NCBI GenBank assembly: GCA_030835305.1
Contig: JAURPJ010000125.1
Coordinates: forward strand, 1-64,000
Direction: 5' to 3'
DNA length: 64,000 nucleotides
Source of the DNA: Verrucomicrobiota bacterium
Lineage (GTDB): Bacteria; Verrucomicrobiota; Verrucomicrobiia; Verrucomicrobiales; Akkermansiaceae
Below are positions 7,274-16,014 of the stretch, in pieces (within the stretch, counting starts at the first letter, position 1; every line of letters begins with the position of its first letter). The notes below the pieces were generated by a model. That model had not been told where the DNA came from and searched no databases. It saw only the letters and a list, made by a program, of their open reading frames with translations. Made by a program: the position numbers and the translations under genes.

Positions 7274-9001
7274 TTAATAAACGTCGCGAGAGTAGCGTTT
7301 CTCTTTTTTCAAGTTTTTAAAATAATCCACTGCCTCCTCCTCGCTTAATCCGCCATGGGTCTGCGCGATCGTGTGAAGCGCCTTATCCACATCCTTCGCC
7401 ATACGCGAGGCATCACCACAGACGTAGAAATATCCGCCACCCTGCAGCCACTCCCAGAGCTCCGCTCCGGCTTCGAGCATCTTATCCTGAACGTATATCT
7501 TTTGCTCCTGGTCTCGAGAGAAGGCCAAATCAAGCTTGGTCAAAGTGCCGTTCTCAAGCGAGGCGTTGATTTCGTCCTCATAAATGAAGTCGGTAGCACG
7601 GTATGGATTACCAAAGAACAACCAATTCCGGCCACTAGCCTTGGAAACCTCGCGCTCTTCGAGGAAGGCACGGAAGGGAGCGATCCCCGTTCCCGGCCCT
7701 ACCATGATGACGTCTTTGGTAAGATCCTCGGGTAGACGGAAGGCCTTGTTATTGTGGACAAAAACTCCGGCACAAACATCTCCGACCCGATCCGCAAGAT
7801 AGGTGGAGCAAACGCCCCCCCGATCACGACCGTGAGTGTTGTAGCGGACAATCGCCACCGTCAGGTGAACCTCACCCGGATGGGCATTGGGACTTGAAGC
7901 GATGGAATAGAGACGTGGCTGCAATTTCTTCAGCACACTGACAAATTCCTCCCCGTCACCAAAATCAGCGGGATGGTCGTTGATCAAATCTATCAATTCA
8001 CGACCCCAGCAAAATTCCTCGATCTCCTCCCGGCTTCCGCCTTCGACAAGTGCGCGCAGAAAGGGCGAACCGGATCGTTCCGACCAAGCCTGCAAAAGCC
8101 TCTTGTTCAAACTTCGAATATCATAAGAGGTTATGAGAGCCTCGCGTAGCGGAGCCTCGTCTCCATTCGGAAGCGGCACTTCGTCCTTCACATTGAAGGG
8201 AAGCAGCGGAAGAATCTCGTCCACCACTTGGGCCGGATTATGCGACAGCACACCCAACGCATCACCAACTTGATATTCCAGCCCGGAATCCTTGAGAGAG
8301 AGCTCAACGTGATAGGTCTCACGCACCGATCCCGCCTTGTTCAAATCATACGAATTGAGCAAGGGAGAAGGAAACGGGTTTTTCTTTCCGTATTCCTCCC
8401 GCTCAGCGACTTCCTGGGCTACCGTCGCCGCCTCAATGCCACCCATCGCGGCAATGACCCCCTGCTTCCACTCGACAAATTCATCGTCATAATCGACATC
8501 GCAATCGATCCGCTTGAGCATCCGTTTGGCCCCAAAGGCCTCAAGGCGCTGGTCAAATTCGATTCCGCACTGGCAAAAATCGGGATACTCGCTGTCGCCC
8601 AGCGCAAAAACCGAATAATTGACCCCCTCAAGACTAGGGACGTCATCTCCCATGATGTATTCATGGAGGTCCGCCGCATTATCAGGCGGCTCGCCATCTC
8701 CGTAAGTGCTCGTGATGATCAAAAGATTCTTCTCCGTAGGCAGCTTGCTCTTGTCATAAGCCGCCATATCAAAAACCTCCGGCTCATAATTGCCCGCTTT
8801 CAAGGCTTTCATGAATTTCTTGGCAACCCTCTCGGAATTACCGGTCTGACTCCCCCACAAAATTGTCACGGGAATTGCAGGACCGGCCGGCTCGACTGAA
8901 ACAGCCTGGCCACCAAGTGCCTTGGTTAAAAAATCACTGAGCCAAGCGCGCTGCTCGGCGTTAAAAGGGGCATTTTCTGGAATGACAATCGGAGAACTCA
9001 T
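7274..9001 (-). CDS. cysJ: NADPH sulfite reductase flavoprotein (alpha) subunit
   Basis: 575 residues from the ATG at 8999-9001; the longer ORF to 9082 lacks family-like sequence. Order: flavodoxin domain (residues about 42-180, ILWGSQTGNSERVAKKF, TSTYGDGEPPDNA, FALGDSEYPDFCQCG), FAD-binding domain (RLYSIASSPNAHPGEVHLTV, then GVCSTYLADR), and NADPH-binding domain (MVGPGTGIAPFRAFLEER, FGNPYRATDFIYEDE), ending KKEKRYSRDVY as CysJ does. It passes electrons from NADPH through FAD and FMN to the sulfite reductase hemoprotein in sulfate assimilation. No cysI hemoprotein gene is adjacent, so its partner must lie elsewhere. The divergent 163-bp spacer to the next gene holds the promoters. Confidence 0.92.
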   Translation of the reverse strand: MSSPIVIPENAPFNAEQRAWLSDFLTKALGGQAVSVEPAGPAIPVTILWGSQTGNSERVAKKFMKALKAGNYEPEVFDMAAYDKSKLPTEKNLLIITSTYGDGEPPDNAADLHEYIMGDDVPSLEGVNYSVFALGDSEYPDFCQCGIEFDQRLEAFGAKRMLKRIDCDVDYDDEFVEWKQGVIAAMGGIEAATVAQEVAEREEYGKKNPFPSPLLNSYDLNKAGSVRETYHVELSLKDSGLEYQVGDALGVLSHNPAQVVDEILPLLPFNVKDEVPLPNGDEAPLREALITSYDIRSLNKRLLQAWSERSGSPFLRALVEGGSREEIEEFCWGRELIDLINDHPADFGDGEEFVSVLKKLQPRLYSIASSPNAHPGEVHLTVAIVRYNTHGRDRGGVCSTYLADRVGDVCAGVFVHNNKAFRLPEDLTKDVIMVGPGTGIAPFRAFLEEREVSKASGRNWLFFGNPYRATDFIYEDEINASLENGTLTKLDLAFSRDQEQKIYVQDKMLEAGAELWEWLQGGGYFYVCGDASRMAKDVDKALHTIAQTHGGLSEEEAVDYFKNLKKEKRYSRDVY

Positions 9002-9164
9002 CTTAGAGAAAAAAGGGAACGAGAAGTTTTGTGCTGGAACATGGCGCTTACCTCGAGACCTGACAAGCGCGTTTCGAGCCATCCTCGATCTAACTTTTCA
9101 ACCGGCCTGTGAGGTCGTCTCCCGACTGGACAAGTCTAAGAGGCCACGGCAACCTAACCCAGTC

Positions 9165-12100
9165 ATGAAGATTGCGGTCATTGGCATCATTGCGGTGCTC
9201 GCGGCACCGGTTTGGGGGCAAGTCACCGAAACCTCCCAAAACCCGGGCCTCGGCCGCCGCCAGTACGAAGAGTCGCTCGCTGACGCCTATGAACGCATCG
9301 ACCCCACCAAGGACGGCTGGGAATCCGAAGCCCGCTCCTCGGAGTATCAAGGAATCCTCGAAATTTTCCTTAACGACCTCCTTCACCAGCAAGAAACCAG
9401 GACCATCGCACCGGATTTCAAATCTGCCCAGCTCCTCAAACCCGAAACCGCGGTCGTTTTTCAGAACTCCGGCCTCACCGTTCGCAGGATTTCAGTCAGT
9501 GCCATCGATGCCCCCTACTCCAAGCTCACTCCCCGCAGCAAGCCAAAGTTCAAAACCAAGATCAAGATGACCTCGGTCGGCAAAGCCACCTCAAACTCGC
9601 TTGTCACCCTCAAGTCCCCACTCCTTCAAATCAATGCCCACTGGAACTGCACCTGGACCGATACCTCGCCTCCAATACTCAAATCCATCGCCCTTAAATA
9701 CTTTGAGGAAGTGGAGCAATCCGGCACCTCCCAACTCCTCTCCGACGTCACCGCCTCTGCCTTCGAAAAAAACCCTTCCTATCACTCCCAGCTCCTTCGC
9801 TCCGCCGACCACTGGCGCAGCCGCATACCCCGCGACTTCGGGCTCGACTCCGCCGCCAACCACGGCCTCGCCCTCGGAGACGTGAATGGCGACGACCTCG
9901 AAGATCTCTACCTCTGCCAGCAGGGCGGCCTCCCAAACCTCCTCTTCCTCCAGAACCCTGACGGCACCCTCACCGATTTTTCGGCCGAATCTCAAACCAA
10001 CTGGCTCGACTACTGCGCTGCCGCTCTTTTCCTCGATCTCGATAACGATGGCGACCAGGACCTCGTCATCTCACAGGATTTCAAAATTCTCTTCATGGAT
10101 AATGTCGACGGCAAGGGCCACTTCGAACTCGCCTTCGGTCGCTCAACCAAAGCTCAATCCTTCTCCCTTACCTCTGCCGACTTCGATCAAGACGGCTTCC
10201 TCGATGTCTATATCTGCGGCTACAACCCCTCAAAATCGACAGCCCGGGCCGGTGCCCTCGCCGAACCTGTCCCCTTCCACGATGCTAACAACGGCGGCCA
10301 AAACATTCTCTGGCGAAACATCGGAGACTGGACCTTCGAGGACGTCACCACTCAGACCGGACTCGACCAAGACAACACCCGTTTCTCCTTCGCCGCCTCC
10401 TGGGAAGACTACGACCAAGACGGCGATCTCGATCTCTACCTCGCCAACGACTTTGGTCGCAACTGCCTTTACCAAAACCAAGGCACCACCGATGGCAAGC
10501 TCCCTTTCTTCGTCAACATCGCCGGACCTCTCGGGGTCGAGGACTCCGCCGCCGGCATGTCCACCAACTGGGGTGACTTCAACCGCGACGGCTGGATGGA
10601 CCTCTACGTTTCCAACATGTTCTCCAGTGCCGGCAGCCGCATCACCTCCCAGCAGCGCTTCCTCAAAGAACTCGACCGCGACGAGGAAACCCGGGGCACC
10701 TTCCGCCGCATGGCTCGCGGAAATACCCTCTTCGCTGCCAATGGCAAGGGCGGCTTCAGCGACGTCTCCACCCAGACAAACACCACCATGGCCCGCTGGT
10801 GCTGGGGCTCCACCTTTGCCGATCTCAATAACGACGGTTGGCTAGATATCCTCGGTGCCAACGGCTTCATTACAGCAGAAGACACCAGCGACTTGTGAAG
10901 TGTCTATTGGCGACAGGTCGTGTCGCAATCACCTCTCGATTCTCAAGGCACGAACGGGCTCATCTCCTACCGCCAAGGCTGGCAGGCTCTCAATCGACTC
11001 CTTCACGAGAACAAATCATTCTCCGGTCGCGAGACAAACAATGCCTTCCTGAACTGCGGAAAAGACACCCCCTTCGCCGACGTCTCCACCGCCATCGGCT
11101 GGGACTTTGCGGACGATGCCCGCGCCATCGGCCTCATCGATTACGATCACGATGGCGACCTCGATCTCTTCGTCACCAACCGCACCGCGCCCCGCGTCCG
11201 GCTCCTTCAAAACAACCTCAAATCCAAGTCAGACTTCCTCTCCCTTCACCTCACCGGCAATGGAAAACCCACCCCGCGCGACCCCATCGGAGCCCGTGTC
11301 GAAGTCCATCTCAAAGACCAGCCCATCCCCCACCTCCGCACCCTCCACGCCGGCCAATCTTTCCTCGCCCAATCCTCCCGCTGGCTCCACTTCGGCCTCG
11401 GCAAAAAGGCCGTCATCGAAAAAGTGATCGTCCGCTGGCCCGGCGCCAAATCACAAACCTTCACCGGCATCAAAGCGAACCAACACCTCTACCTTACCCA
11501 GGGTTCAACCGCCGTAACTCCGCGCCAAGGCCGCCAGGAGACGGCCCTCAAACCGGGCCCACACCCGCTCCCCGAAAAAACCTCCATCGCCCGTATCATC
11601 CCGCCTGCGGGTCATGCCATCCCAACTTTACCCATTTCAGAAGTTCAGCCCGTCAACCATTCTGGAACAACCCTCATTGCTCTCTGGAGCCGCACCTGCC
11701 CACACTGTCAGGAAAAACTTAGGACTTGGTCCGGCGAAGCCGAGAAATTCAAAACCTCCGGCATCAAACTTGCTCTCCTTTGCACTGATCAGGAGCCCCT
11801 CGATGAAGCCGACGCTTTTCTCAAATCTATCAAGTCACACTTTCTTACACAAAAGGCCGCACCCGAAGCCGTCGAACTCCTCGACGCTCTTCACGCCTCA
11901 ATCATAGACCTTTGGATTCCCATCCCCGTCCCGACCAGCTTCCTCGTCTCGAACGAAGGCCAGCTACTCGCCATCTATCGCGGCCCGGCGTCTCTCGACC
12001 AAATCATCACCGACACCAAACTCGCAAGCGCCACCGCCGAAGAACGTCGGCTCGCCGGCACTCCCTTCTCCGGCCGCTGGACGGGCAAGCCCACCCCCTC

Positions 12101-12926
12101 ATCCCCACAACGGACCGCGCAACAACTCGTCCAGCGCGGCCTTCCTGATCTCGCCATCAACTATCTCCGCTCCGCCCTAACCAAGCCTTTCCTGCAAAGC
12201 GACAAATTCACGCAAAGCGACAACCTTCTTCTTCTGGGGCAACTCCTCGGTCAACAAGAGCGCCCCGCCGAAGCCCTGACTCATCTGGAAGCCGCACACC
12301 AGCTCCTTCCCAACGACATTCGCATCCTGCGTCTCATCGCCACCGCCTACGCGGACACAGGAAACCTCGCCGAATCCTACGCCACCTTCGACTCGACCAT
12401 GAAACTCCACCCGCAAAACCTGGATATTTATGACGATGCCATAGGGATTGCGCTCAAAGCCAAAGATCCGACACAAGCCCTGAATTACCGGAAAAAATCC
12501 GTCACCAACAATCCCCGGAACCCCATCCTTCGCTACCGCCTCGTCCTTTTTCAACTCAAAAAAGGTCAACCCGCGGATGCCGTCGCCAACTGCAAAACCA
12601 TTCTCGGCACCTCCCCCAAATTTCTCGAAGCCGCCAACCTTCTCTCTCGAATTCTCTCCACTCATCCCAATGAGAAAATTCGCAGCCCCGAAGAATCCTT
12701 CGCCCTCGCCTCCCGCCTCTGCCAACTCTCCAAAAACCGGAACGCCAGCCACCTCCTTACTCTCGCCTATGCCCAAGCCAACCTCGCTAAATTTGAGGAC
12801 GCCACCAAAACCCTCGGTCTCCTCACCAAAGTCGCTCCCCCCGATTCCACTTTCACAAAAGAGGTCAACGCCGCCCTCGAAAAAACAAAGGCGAACCAAG
12901 TCATCCGTAACTCCTACTGGCAATAA
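9165..12926 (+). CDS. Candidate selenoprotein: secreted CRTAC1-like (FG-GAP/ASPIC-UnbV) protein with thioredoxin-like and TPR domains, in-frame TGA at 10896-10898
   Basis: One 1253-residue frame broken only by a TGA read as selenocysteine 578. Order: signal peptide (1-19, MKIAVIGIIAVLAAPVWGQ); a charged N-domain; FG-GAP/VCBS repeats with Asp-rich calcium loops (GDVNGDDLEDLYL, DLDNDGDQDLVI, DFDQDGFLDVYI, DYDQDGDLDLYL, DFNRDGWMDLYV, DLNNDGWLDILG, then after the TGA DYDHDGDLDLFV); an ASPIC/UnbV domain ending VIVRWPGAKSQTFTGI; a thioredoxin-like domain with CPHC at residues 845-848; and TPR-like helices to the end. The TGA sits in the middle of the propeller, between NGFITAEDTSDL and SVYWRQVVSQSP, and both sides stay in one frame with the same domain. 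A SECIS-like hairpin follows it. The fdhF gene just downstream shows that the cell reads TGA as Sec. Alternatives: a recent nonsense mutation, or two separate products (the downstream half would start at GTG 10920 without signal peptide). No clear RBS is seen before the ATG. Confidence 0.8.
10899..10932 (+). promoter_or_regulatory. Candidate bacterial SECIS element of the CRTAC1-like gene
   Basis: Immediately after the in-frame TGA. The upper stem GCGACA (10910-10915) pairs perfectly with TGTCGC (10921-10926) around the five-base loop GGTCG (10916-10920). Below it G10909 is bulged, ATT (10906-10908) pairs with AAT (10927-10929), and a short lower helix GTG (10900-10902) with CAC (10930-10932) closes the element. 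The loop starts 17 nt after the TGA, against 18 nt for the loop GGTCT in this window's fdhF. A bulged base in the stem and a GGUC-type loop are features of the E. coli fdhF SECIS bound by SelB (known); the match here is by eye. Confidence 0.75.
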
Positions 12927-13275: not shown

Positions 13276-16014
13276 ATGATCAACGACCCAAACTCCGCCA
13301 TCGCCTCACAACTTACCATCACCATCGATGGCCAAAAGACCACTTTCACCGAAGGCGAAACAATCTACCAAGTCGCCACCCGTCTCAAAAAAGACATTCC
13401 CACTCTCTGTTACGATGATCGCCTCGAGGCCTTCGGCGGATGCCGCCTCTGCATTGTCGAGGTCGAAGGCATCCGCAACCCCGTCGCCTCCTGCACTACC
13501 AAGGCCAACGACGGCATGGTCGTGAAAACGGCCCCGCCCCGAATCCAAAAAATGCGGAAGACGCTCCTAGAAATGGTCGTTTCTGAAAACCGCCAGATCG
13601 AAGTCGACCCTCTCCGCGGCCTCGCCTCCCAGGAGCTATCTACCCTCGTTAACAAATACGGCGCCCGCAATGGTCGCTTCAAAGGGGCCAAATCGGGCAC
13701 TTCAAACATCAAAGACCAAAACCCCTTCATTCTCCGCGACTACGAGCAGTGCATTTCCTGCTACCGTTGCGTCCGCGTCTGCGCCGAACAGGAAGGTGAC
13801 TACGCCATCACCGTCGCCAACCGCGGCTTCCACACTCAAATCACCACCGAGTTCAACAACGACCTCCGTGATTCCGACTGCACCTTCTGCGGACAGTGCA
13901 TTCAAACCTGCCCCACTGGTGCTCTTGCTGACAAGAAGGCCATTCGCGCCGAAGCTCTCCCCGATCCCATTCAAAAGACCCGCACGGTTTGCCCATACTG
14001 CGCCGTTGGTTGTTCGATTGATCTCATGACGAAGGGCGACAAAATCGTCGGAGCTCAGCCCGCGATGAACGGCCCCGCCAACAAAGGTGCCCTCTGCATA
14101 AAAGGCCAGTTCACTTACGACTTTATCCAACACGAGGATCGCCTCAAGAAGCCCCTCATCAAACAAGCCGACGGAACCTTTAAAGAGGTCGAGTGGGACG
14201 AGGCCCTAAAGAAAGCCGCCGAAGGATTTGCCAAGGCAAAGACCAAGTACGGCAGACATAGTATTTTCGGAATCGCTTCCGGCCGGGCCCCGCACGAAGC
14301 CGCCTACTCGATGCAGAAGTTCATTCGAGCGGGATTCGGGACACACCACATCGATAACTGTAGTCGAGCCTGACACGCTCCCACCGTGGCCGGTCTGGCC
14401 GCTCAAATTGGAAGAGGCGCAATGTCCAACCCCCTCGTGGACATGGACAAACCCGACACCATCTTCGCCATTGGCACCAACATGACCGAGTGCCACCCCG
14501 TCGCCGCCACCGGCCTCAAAAAAGCACTCACAAAGGGAGCCAAGCTCGTCGTCGCCGACCCCCGCAAGACGCGCCTCGCCGAACTTGCCCACCTTCATCT
14601 ACCCATCCGCGTAGGATCTGATGTCGCTCTCCTACTCGCCATGGCTCACGTCATCGTGCGGGAAGGATTGGAGGACACGGAATTCATTTCCGACCGAACC
14701 ACCGAGATCGAAGCCTTTAAGGAACACGTTAGGGAATTCACTCCGGAGTGGGCCTCCGAAATCTGTGAAGTTCCTGCGGCTGATATCGAACAAGCCGCGC
14801 TCTGGTATGGCTTGGCCAAACTCGGAGCCATTTATTATACTCTCGGCATCACCGAGCACATCTGCGGAGTCGACAACGTCCAGTCCCTCTGCAACCTCGC
14901 CCTGCTCACCGGGAATCTCGGCAAGGAAGGCACCGGCATCAACCCGATGCGTGGACAGAACAACATTCAAGGCGCCGGTGACTGCGGAGCCGTCCCCGCA
15001 AACTATCCCGGCTTCCAACCCGTGGTCTCGGAGGAGTTTCACGAAAAGTTCAAGAAAGCGTATCAACAACCCGACCTCGACCTCGGCAATGCCATGACCA
15101 AGGTCACCGCTCTGAACCTCTGCGGCCAGAAAGAAGGAGGAATCCACGCCATGCTCATCAACGGCGAAAATACCGTGGTCACCGACCCAGATAAAAACCA
15201 CTGTGAAAAGGCCCTCAACTCTCTGGACCATCTCGTCGTCATTGATATTTTTCTCACAGAAACCGCCCAGATGGCCGACATCGTCCTCCCAGCCTCCGCC
15301 TGGGGCGAAACCGATGGCGTCCAGGCAAACACCGAACGACGGGTCCAACGCCTCCGCGCCGCCGTCCCTTCCTGGGGTGATTCCAAACCCGACTGGTGGA
15401 TCATCGCCGGCATTGCCAAAGAAATGGGCATTCCCGGATTCGAATTCGAATCTGCAAAAGACGTTTTCAACGAACTCTGCTCACTTAGCCCGATCTACAA
15501 AGGTCTCAACTGGGACAATATCGGCGACGGCAACTACCAATGGCCAGTCCCCGAAGAAGGCCACCCCGGCACTCCCATCCTCCACCAAGGCGAATTTAAA
15601 GACGGCAAACCAGGCCTCTTCAAAATCATCGGCTACCGTGACCCAGCCGAAGTCATCGATGACGACTACCCGGTCTGGCTCACCACCGGTCGCCGCCTCC
15701 AGGCCTATCACACCCGCACCCAAACCGGGCGCGCCAGTGGCATCGACTACCTCCTCTCCGAGGAAACTCTTGAAGTCCACCCGGACGACGCCAGGGACTG
15801 GGGCCTCATCGACGGCAAATTTGCCAAGATTGCCAGCCGCCGGGGCGAGATCCAGCTCAAGGTCGAAACCACCACCCGCTCTCCGCGCGGCACCGTTTTC
15901 ACCTCCTTCAGCTTTGCCGACACCAACGTCAACATTCTCACCGGATCCGGCTACGACCCTATCACCCAAACCGCCGAACTCAAAGTCTGCCCTGTCCGAA
16001 TCAAGCCAGCTTAG
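13276..16014 (+). CDS. fdhF: Selenocysteine-containing formate dehydrogenase, catalytic subunit (TGA at 14371-14373 read as Sec366)
   Basis: 912 residues if TGA is read as Sec. N-terminus: a NuoG-like [2Fe-2S] domain (TLCYDDRLEAFGGCRLCIVE), then two [4Fe-4S] motifs (CISCYRCVRVC, CTFCGQCIQTC), then the molybdopterin enzyme with its own [4Fe-4S] site (CPYCAVGC), the cofactor-binding oxidoreductase domain and a molydopterin dinucleotide-binding C-domain (LTTGRRLQAYHTRTQTGRA). The TGA lies in CSRA-U-HAPTVAGLAAQIG, the exact place of the metal-bound Sec in E. coli FdhH (known). It oxidises formate to CO2 or runs in reverse, in the cytoplasm (no Tat signal). No gene for a flavin/NAD-binding diaphorase partner is adjacent. 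It must not be annotated as two genes split at 14373. Confidence 0.95.
14374..14403 (+). promoter_or_regulatory. SECIS element of fdhF
   Basis: After the Sec codon, GGCC (14388-14391) pairs with GGCC (14397-14400) around the loop GGTCT (14392-14396). The stem is extended by a T-G wobble (14387/14401) and G14386-C14402. The loop starts 18 nt after the TGA. The E. coli fdhF SECIS has the same GGUCU loop at the same distance (known), so this is a clear match. Confidence 0.88.

Follow-up and report, generated by a model that had tools for sequence, protein, structure and literature searches.

The gene at positions 9165 to 12926 of the window (the whole 64,000-nucleotide stretch of contig JAURPJ010000125.1 that was analysed) very probably encodes a selenoprotein with the CRTAC1/ASPIC-UnbV fold, in which UGA 578 is decoded as selenocysteine (Sec) and which represents a family widespread in Planctomycetota and Verrucomicrobiota. 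Sec at residue 578, as the preliminary description had proposed, is supported because the TGA is conserved to about 33% identity and across dozens of paralogues, because a covarying SelB-type hairpin is restricted to the TGA-bearing members, because the genome encodes the Sec machinery, which tends to be found in the same genomes as the TGA forms, and, less clear-cut, because a sister clade has Cys at the site, often in genomes that lack this machinery. The finding is larger than that description claimed, i.e. it concerns a multi-paralogue family and not one gene. Judged from its sequence, the apparently UGA-read propeller protein belongs to a large multi-paralogue Sec family of Planctomycetota and Verrucomicrobiota, copy numbers reaching 24 in one genome.

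As first described, the reading frame contains one internal stop, TGA 10896–10898 at position 578. It spans 1253 residues. The features of the gene, and the basis on which each was assigned, are as follows.

9165–12926, forward strand: whole predicted selenoprotein gene, 1253 residues with Sec578 (single-TGA open frame; homologues L001–L022 with the same TGA)
9165–9221, forward strand: probable signal peptide, MKIAVIGIIAVLAAPVWGQ (translation read by eye)
9321–9719, forward strand: N-terminal helix and beta domain, W160 and W164 being invariant (secondary structure from AF2 model m4abd4ebcaec0; invariant columns)
9711–11216, forward strand: FG-GAP beta-propeller of the CRTAC1 type (Pfam FG-GAP_3/FG-GAP; model compared with murine CRTAC1, 9etn_A)
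10896–10898, forward strand: predicted Sec578 codon TGA in the motif D-L-U-S-x-x-W-R (TGA in 22/22 close homologues; 120 distinct Sec contexts)
10910–10926, forward strand: putative bacterial SECIS hairpin, stem GCGACA 10910–10915 / TGTCGC 10921–10926, loop GGTCG 10916–10920 (pairing, covariation, energy and codon conservation)
11286–11489, forward strand: ASPIC/UnbV domain (Pfam PF07593, E 2.6e-17, residues 708–775)
11655–12005, forward strand: ResA/TlpA-like thioredoxin domain, C845-x-x-C848 at 11697–11708 (NCBIfam StoA and PDB ResA; Foldseek ResA, TlpA and StoA)
12213–12644, forward strand: tetratricopeptide repeats (Pfam TPR_19 and others)

All domains named in the preliminary description are recovered: the FG-GAP propeller followed by ASPIC/UnbV is matched by Pfam above gathering scores, the TPRs by Pfam, and the thioredoxin-like domain, at about residues 831–947, by ResA/StoA entries of NCBIfam and PDB. 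Both C845 and C848 are invariant among close homologues. The AF2 model (pLDDT 82.7, pTM 0.87) superposes on murine CRTAC1 with Z 40 along 457 residues, the rmsd for propeller plus ASPIC region being 2.3; the best counterparts of its C-terminal domain are of the ResA/TlpA kind. Sec578 opens a short predicted helix in an insert of the last propeller blade, where local pLDDT is about 50–70. As such, the protein shares domains and fold with CRTAC1/ASPIC_UnbV proteins (PF07593; 9etn) over the propeller and ASPIC region, but differs from CRTAC1 in the D-L-U-S-x-x-W-R insert and in the additional domains fused to it (N-terminal, thioredoxin and TPR). Where ordinary relatives of the CRTAC1 type were compared, they have no insert at the Sec site. 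Its C-terminal domain is of the same kind as the ResA/TlpA/StoA oxidoreductases, including the invariant CxxC, but in this protein it forms one part of a fusion, with the Sec located elsewhere, and other family members lack the domain altogether. The core common to all classes examined consists of the propeller, the Sec insert and ASPIC/UnbV, with the thioredoxin-like and TPR domains being optional. The Sec578 propeller protein is probably extracytoplasmic or secreted.

A scan of contigs yielded 22 close homologues (33–92% identity) from Akkermansiaceae, other Verrucomicrobia and Planctomycetales/Pirellulales. TGA occupies the same codon in 22 of 22, down to about 33% protein identity and together with the covarying hairpin, which is the opposite of a TGA conserved in no relative, the outcome that the preliminary description had held to speak against Sec. 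Seven residues around Sec578 are invariant in these homologues (D576, L577, S579, W582, R583, V585, and Q588), as are, outside the site, W160, W164 and C845/C848. Across 120 distinct Sec contexts, position −2 is Asp in all 120, position +1 is Ser in 109, and position +4 is Trp in 116, and the interrupting codon is always TGA, never TAA or TAG, among the matches listed.

Profile searches place members in 23 of the 27 genomes of the window's genus, with up to 18 per genome and three in the window's own genome. Among the matches listed, every one from the genus carries exactly one TGA except L089, which has Cys at the aligned Sec site and no TGA. Counted from the match table, seven further genomes hold 24, 14, 10, 7, 4, 2, and 0 TGA members (14, 10, 24, 4, and 7 in the genomes of L013 and L017–L020, respectively), counts that may include contamination where they come from MAGs. 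Relatives are also present in 108 of 392 Planctomycetota genomes, most with TGA; the Planctomycetota matches listed comprise 18 without a stop, all others having one TGA. Members also occur in two single-contig multi-megabase assemblies, G727 and G527. Over the wider Verrucomicrobiota, a narrow profile matched only 2 of 388 genomes, and the family is thus patchy there.

The hairpin begins 11 nt after the UGA and its loop 17 nt after it; the hairpin, with six base pairs, has an energy of −7.9 kcal/mol. The stem, the GGTCG loop and the 17-nt distance are exactly those first reported, while the lower stem proposed with them is mostly unconserved. Folding of the region returns the hairpin as described, but the 53-nt sequence taken alone is unexceptional (z −0.81), and comparative tests were therefore used. 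Across homologues and paralogues, 96.4% of cells in the six-pair stem are paired, with double-sided changes at three pairs in ten cells; 0 of 500 shuffles match the real values for paired cells, double-changed cells, and covariation score, and stem registers slid away from the true one score far lower. In a second class of ten sequences, a GGUC loop sits on a stem displaced by one position, and the covariation is weaker. Nowhere else in the gene are synonymous codons as conserved as at 577–588. At positions where the more distant homologues have the same residue, identity to the codons of the window's gene is 74% at 579–591 vs 40% elsewhere.

The loop is also specific to the TGA-bearing forms. 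In the same alignment, a GGUY loop at offset 17 is found in 93 of 120 distinct Sec contexts vs 0 of 35 non-TGA contexts. Hairpin energy averages −8.2 kcal/mol for Sec sites, compared with −0.4 for Cys sites, −2.1 for codons drawn at random from these genes and −3.9 for other non-Sec sites, the last group including three or four stray FG-GAP matches that are not family members. Three GC-rich sites of that group have good hairpin scores without a GGUY loop. The non-TGA paralogues L193, L195, and L196, whose Sec position is occupied by Glu or Gln, carry GC-rich hairpins of −12 to −23 kcal/mol that possibly arose by chance and have no GGUY loop.

Within the window, five in-frame TGAs are flanked by ≥150 open codons in both directions, and a GGUC loop follows at 17–18 nt in two of them, i.e. 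10896 and 14371. The latter belongs to a FdhF-type formate dehydrogenase selenoprotein downstream of the propeller gene (13276–16014, forward strand; TGA 14371–14373), whose U366 lies in HIDNCSRA-U-HAP and whose GGUCU loop stands at 18 nt; the comparison drawn with it in the preliminary description thus holds. No Rfam family matched anywhere in the window at gathering thresholds, and none reports the SECIS of this fdhF; a tRNA/tmRNA search of the window found none. The propeller gene shares with FdhF-like selenoproteins of the E. coli SECIS type the UGA, the adjacent downstream hairpin, the GGUC-type loop at 17–18 nt, and SelA/SelB/tRNA-Sec. In contrast to them, it encodes a propeller protein and not a thioredoxin fold or molybdoenzyme. 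SelB and tRNA-Sec would decode UGA 578 as Sec, guided by the downstream GGUCG-loop hairpin.

The genome encodes selB, selA, and tRNA-Sec (TIGR00475, 317.7 bits; TIGR00474, 488.8 bits; tRNA-SeC with anticodon TCA), and SelB is above cut-off in all but three of the 27 genus genomes. Among the 392 Planctomycetota genomes, SelB is found in 66 of the 73 listed TGA genomes vs 170 of 319 others (P = 4e-10). Six of the seven SelB-less TGA genomes have SelA, so that SelB or SelA is present in 72 of 73 and incomplete assembly is the likely reason for the missing SelB; G481 is the TGA genome with neither in its assembly. Eight SelB-less genomes have a relative but no listed TGA member, and the absence of the TGA was confirmed in all eight; five of them have Cys at the Sec site, and SelA gave no match in seven and a below-cut-off match in one.

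Over distinct contexts, the residues at the site are U (120), C (16), E (7), A (4), Q (3), and D (2), three further rows with L or S being stray matches. In a tree of 150 rows, the Sec label changes five times vs 28.6 times in shuffles. The Cys rows (14 in the tree) group with two Glu rows and one Asp row in a fully supported sister clade; one Cys row in another frame, L207, is a long-branch stray match. This Cys form (DY-C-[ST]-x-[FY]-W; L089, L205, L212, and L214) has the same fold as the Sec family and Cys at the aligned site but, unlike Sec members, neither TGA nor hairpin, and it is found in SelB-less genomes, yet also in genomes with Sec members. Within the main Sec clade the replacements that arise are Glu, Gln, Ala, and Asp; the second class shows a single origin of Glu. 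Variable non-Cys residues, which the preliminary description had regarded as evidence against Sec, do therefore occur in nested paralogues, but because these lie inside the TGA-dominated clade and have no GGUY loop, we read them as probable losses of Sec. The nearest main-clade paralogues without Sec have Glu, Gln, Ala, or Asp and not Cys; the classical Sec/Cys exchange is thus seen only towards the sister clade. The root of the tree is arbitrary, so we make no claim of Sec as the ancestral state.

Other readings of the TGA have to be set against this evidence. An ORF with a GTG start at 10920–12926 would allow UGA 578 to be a true stop, with the downstream part translated from an internal start as the second piece of a two-piece protein without Sec. 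We consider this very unlikely: the stop is never TAA or TAG in the matches listed, S-x-x-W-R directly after the TGA is among the most conserved parts of the protein, the open frame after the TGA has a median of 527 codons vs 20–32 in shifted frames, and the covarying hairpin and the link with SelB would be left without explanation. Less likely still is that UGA is reassigned in these genomes or read by a near-cognate tRNA, e.g. as Trp. Low-rate readthrough of stop codons can occur, but TGA is an ordinary terminator in 19 of 51 family genes (those whose end lies in the locus), relatives without TGA carry C, E, A, Q, or D at this position and never Trp, and the genome has a tRNA-Sec. A sequencing error at the TGA, or a pseudogene, is scarcely credible even though many of the genomes are draft MAGs, given that the same codon is present in more than 100 genes, including those of the two single-contig multi-megabase assemblies, and that protein-level conservation persists past it; the recurrence of the TGA refutes this reading.

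Sec insertion at residue 578 being the preferred reading, its chemistry is a separate matter. The Sec in the last-blade insert may form the centre, reactive or metal-binding, of an enzyme that acts outside the cytoplasm. In members such as the window's protein, the fused CxxC domain suggests thiol reduction, and this ResA/TlpA-type domain could re-reduce the Sec. Depending on the clade, the site holds U, C, E, or D, all of them capable ligands, which makes it a serious alternative that Sec (or Cys, Glu, Asp) is a propeller metal ligand and not a thiol-type redox residue. In the DMSO reductase superfamily, Mo is likewise coordinated by Sec, Cys, Asp, or Ser, depending on the enzyme. A metal ligand also agrees with the similarly propeller-shaped aldos-2-ulose dehydratase (Z 22), whose deposited structures are titled with an active-site metal, and with the retention of Sec in members without any thioredoxin domain. 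Gln and Ala are nevertheless also found at the site, and a thioredoxin or AhpC/TSA-like domain is fused in several members, which favours thiol chemistry; we hold the metal-ligand role only tentatively, at somewhat less than even weight.

No conserved gene-neighbour partner was found for the family; its neighbours are variable or are tandem arrays of the same family, with no consistent functional clue. A CysJ-like sulfite reductase flavoprotein (7274–9082, reverse strand; TIGR01931, 641 bits, just under cut-off) is divergent to the selenoprotein gene, and most close relatives have an ORF of similar size (575–614 aa) at its position. The name UnbV was originally given to proteins of enediyne clusters. 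In G527 (9.5 Mb contig), two tandem Sec-propeller genes (L230:6076–11775) lie beside a type I polyketide/PUFA-type synthase, a neighbour that we do not take as functional evidence. In some bacteria, CRTAC1-family genes are reported to adjoin hydrazine synthase-like genes (PMC12758564).

Other Sec variants were seen alongside. A separate subfamily with the motif P-D-G-U-[TRS]-C-x-W (L206, L208, L222, L103, and L107:3454–3507) is present in G727, a single-contig assembly, and in the window's genus, and has a different hairpin (GGGCTGTCGTGTCACAGCCC in L107). In Planctomycetota, U-S-x-x-W-R is replaced by D-L-U-L-P-F-A-E-G in L218, L221, and L225, and by D-L-U-L-S-L-I-E-N in L217.

The preliminary description knew of no selenoprotein family of the CRTAC1/ASPIC-UnbV type, and current resources agree. 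A 2026 catalogue of 119 prokaryotic selenoprotein families and subfamilies (PMC13188914) has no CRTAC1, FG-GAP, or UnbV entry, and NCBIfam returned no selenoprotein model among the matches of the window's protein or of four other members (three of them Sec forms). Among openly licensed papers, none was found that links selenoproteins with ASPIC/UnbV or bacterial CRTAC1; a paper on Porphyra planctomycetes that lists selenoprotein candidates (PMC4807772) may contain an earlier sighting. The way in which the UGA would be decoded is ordinary, but the catalogue has neither the protein class nor the Sec motif nor the replacement pattern.

According to the 2025 deep-Sep study, every known selenoprotein now seems to have a Cys homologue, and the method's own filter may miss any that does not (PMC12013277). 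The main clade of the Sec-propeller family is a large counter-case to such universality, and filters that demand Cys homologues would be prone to discard it because its replacements are Glu, Gln, Ala, and Asp. The same study reports 46 genes in the largest bacterial selenoproteome, the previous record being 39 (PMC12013277); against this, one genome here has 24 genes of the Sec-propeller family alone and another has 18. A broader proposal, which we regard as evenly poised between right and wrong, is that these proteins form a major undescribed class of extracytoplasmic selenoenzymes with dozens of paralogues per genome, whose propeller Sec would bind a metal or perform a redox step, whose main-clade substitutes are Glu, Gln, Asp, or Ala and not Cys, and which would have been missed since detection demands Cys homologues. 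Standard annotation will tend to split or truncate such genes, and selenium use in these phyla would therefore be underestimated. If the proposal is true, some Planctomycetota and Verrucomicrobiota would be among the most selenoprotein-rich bacteria known.
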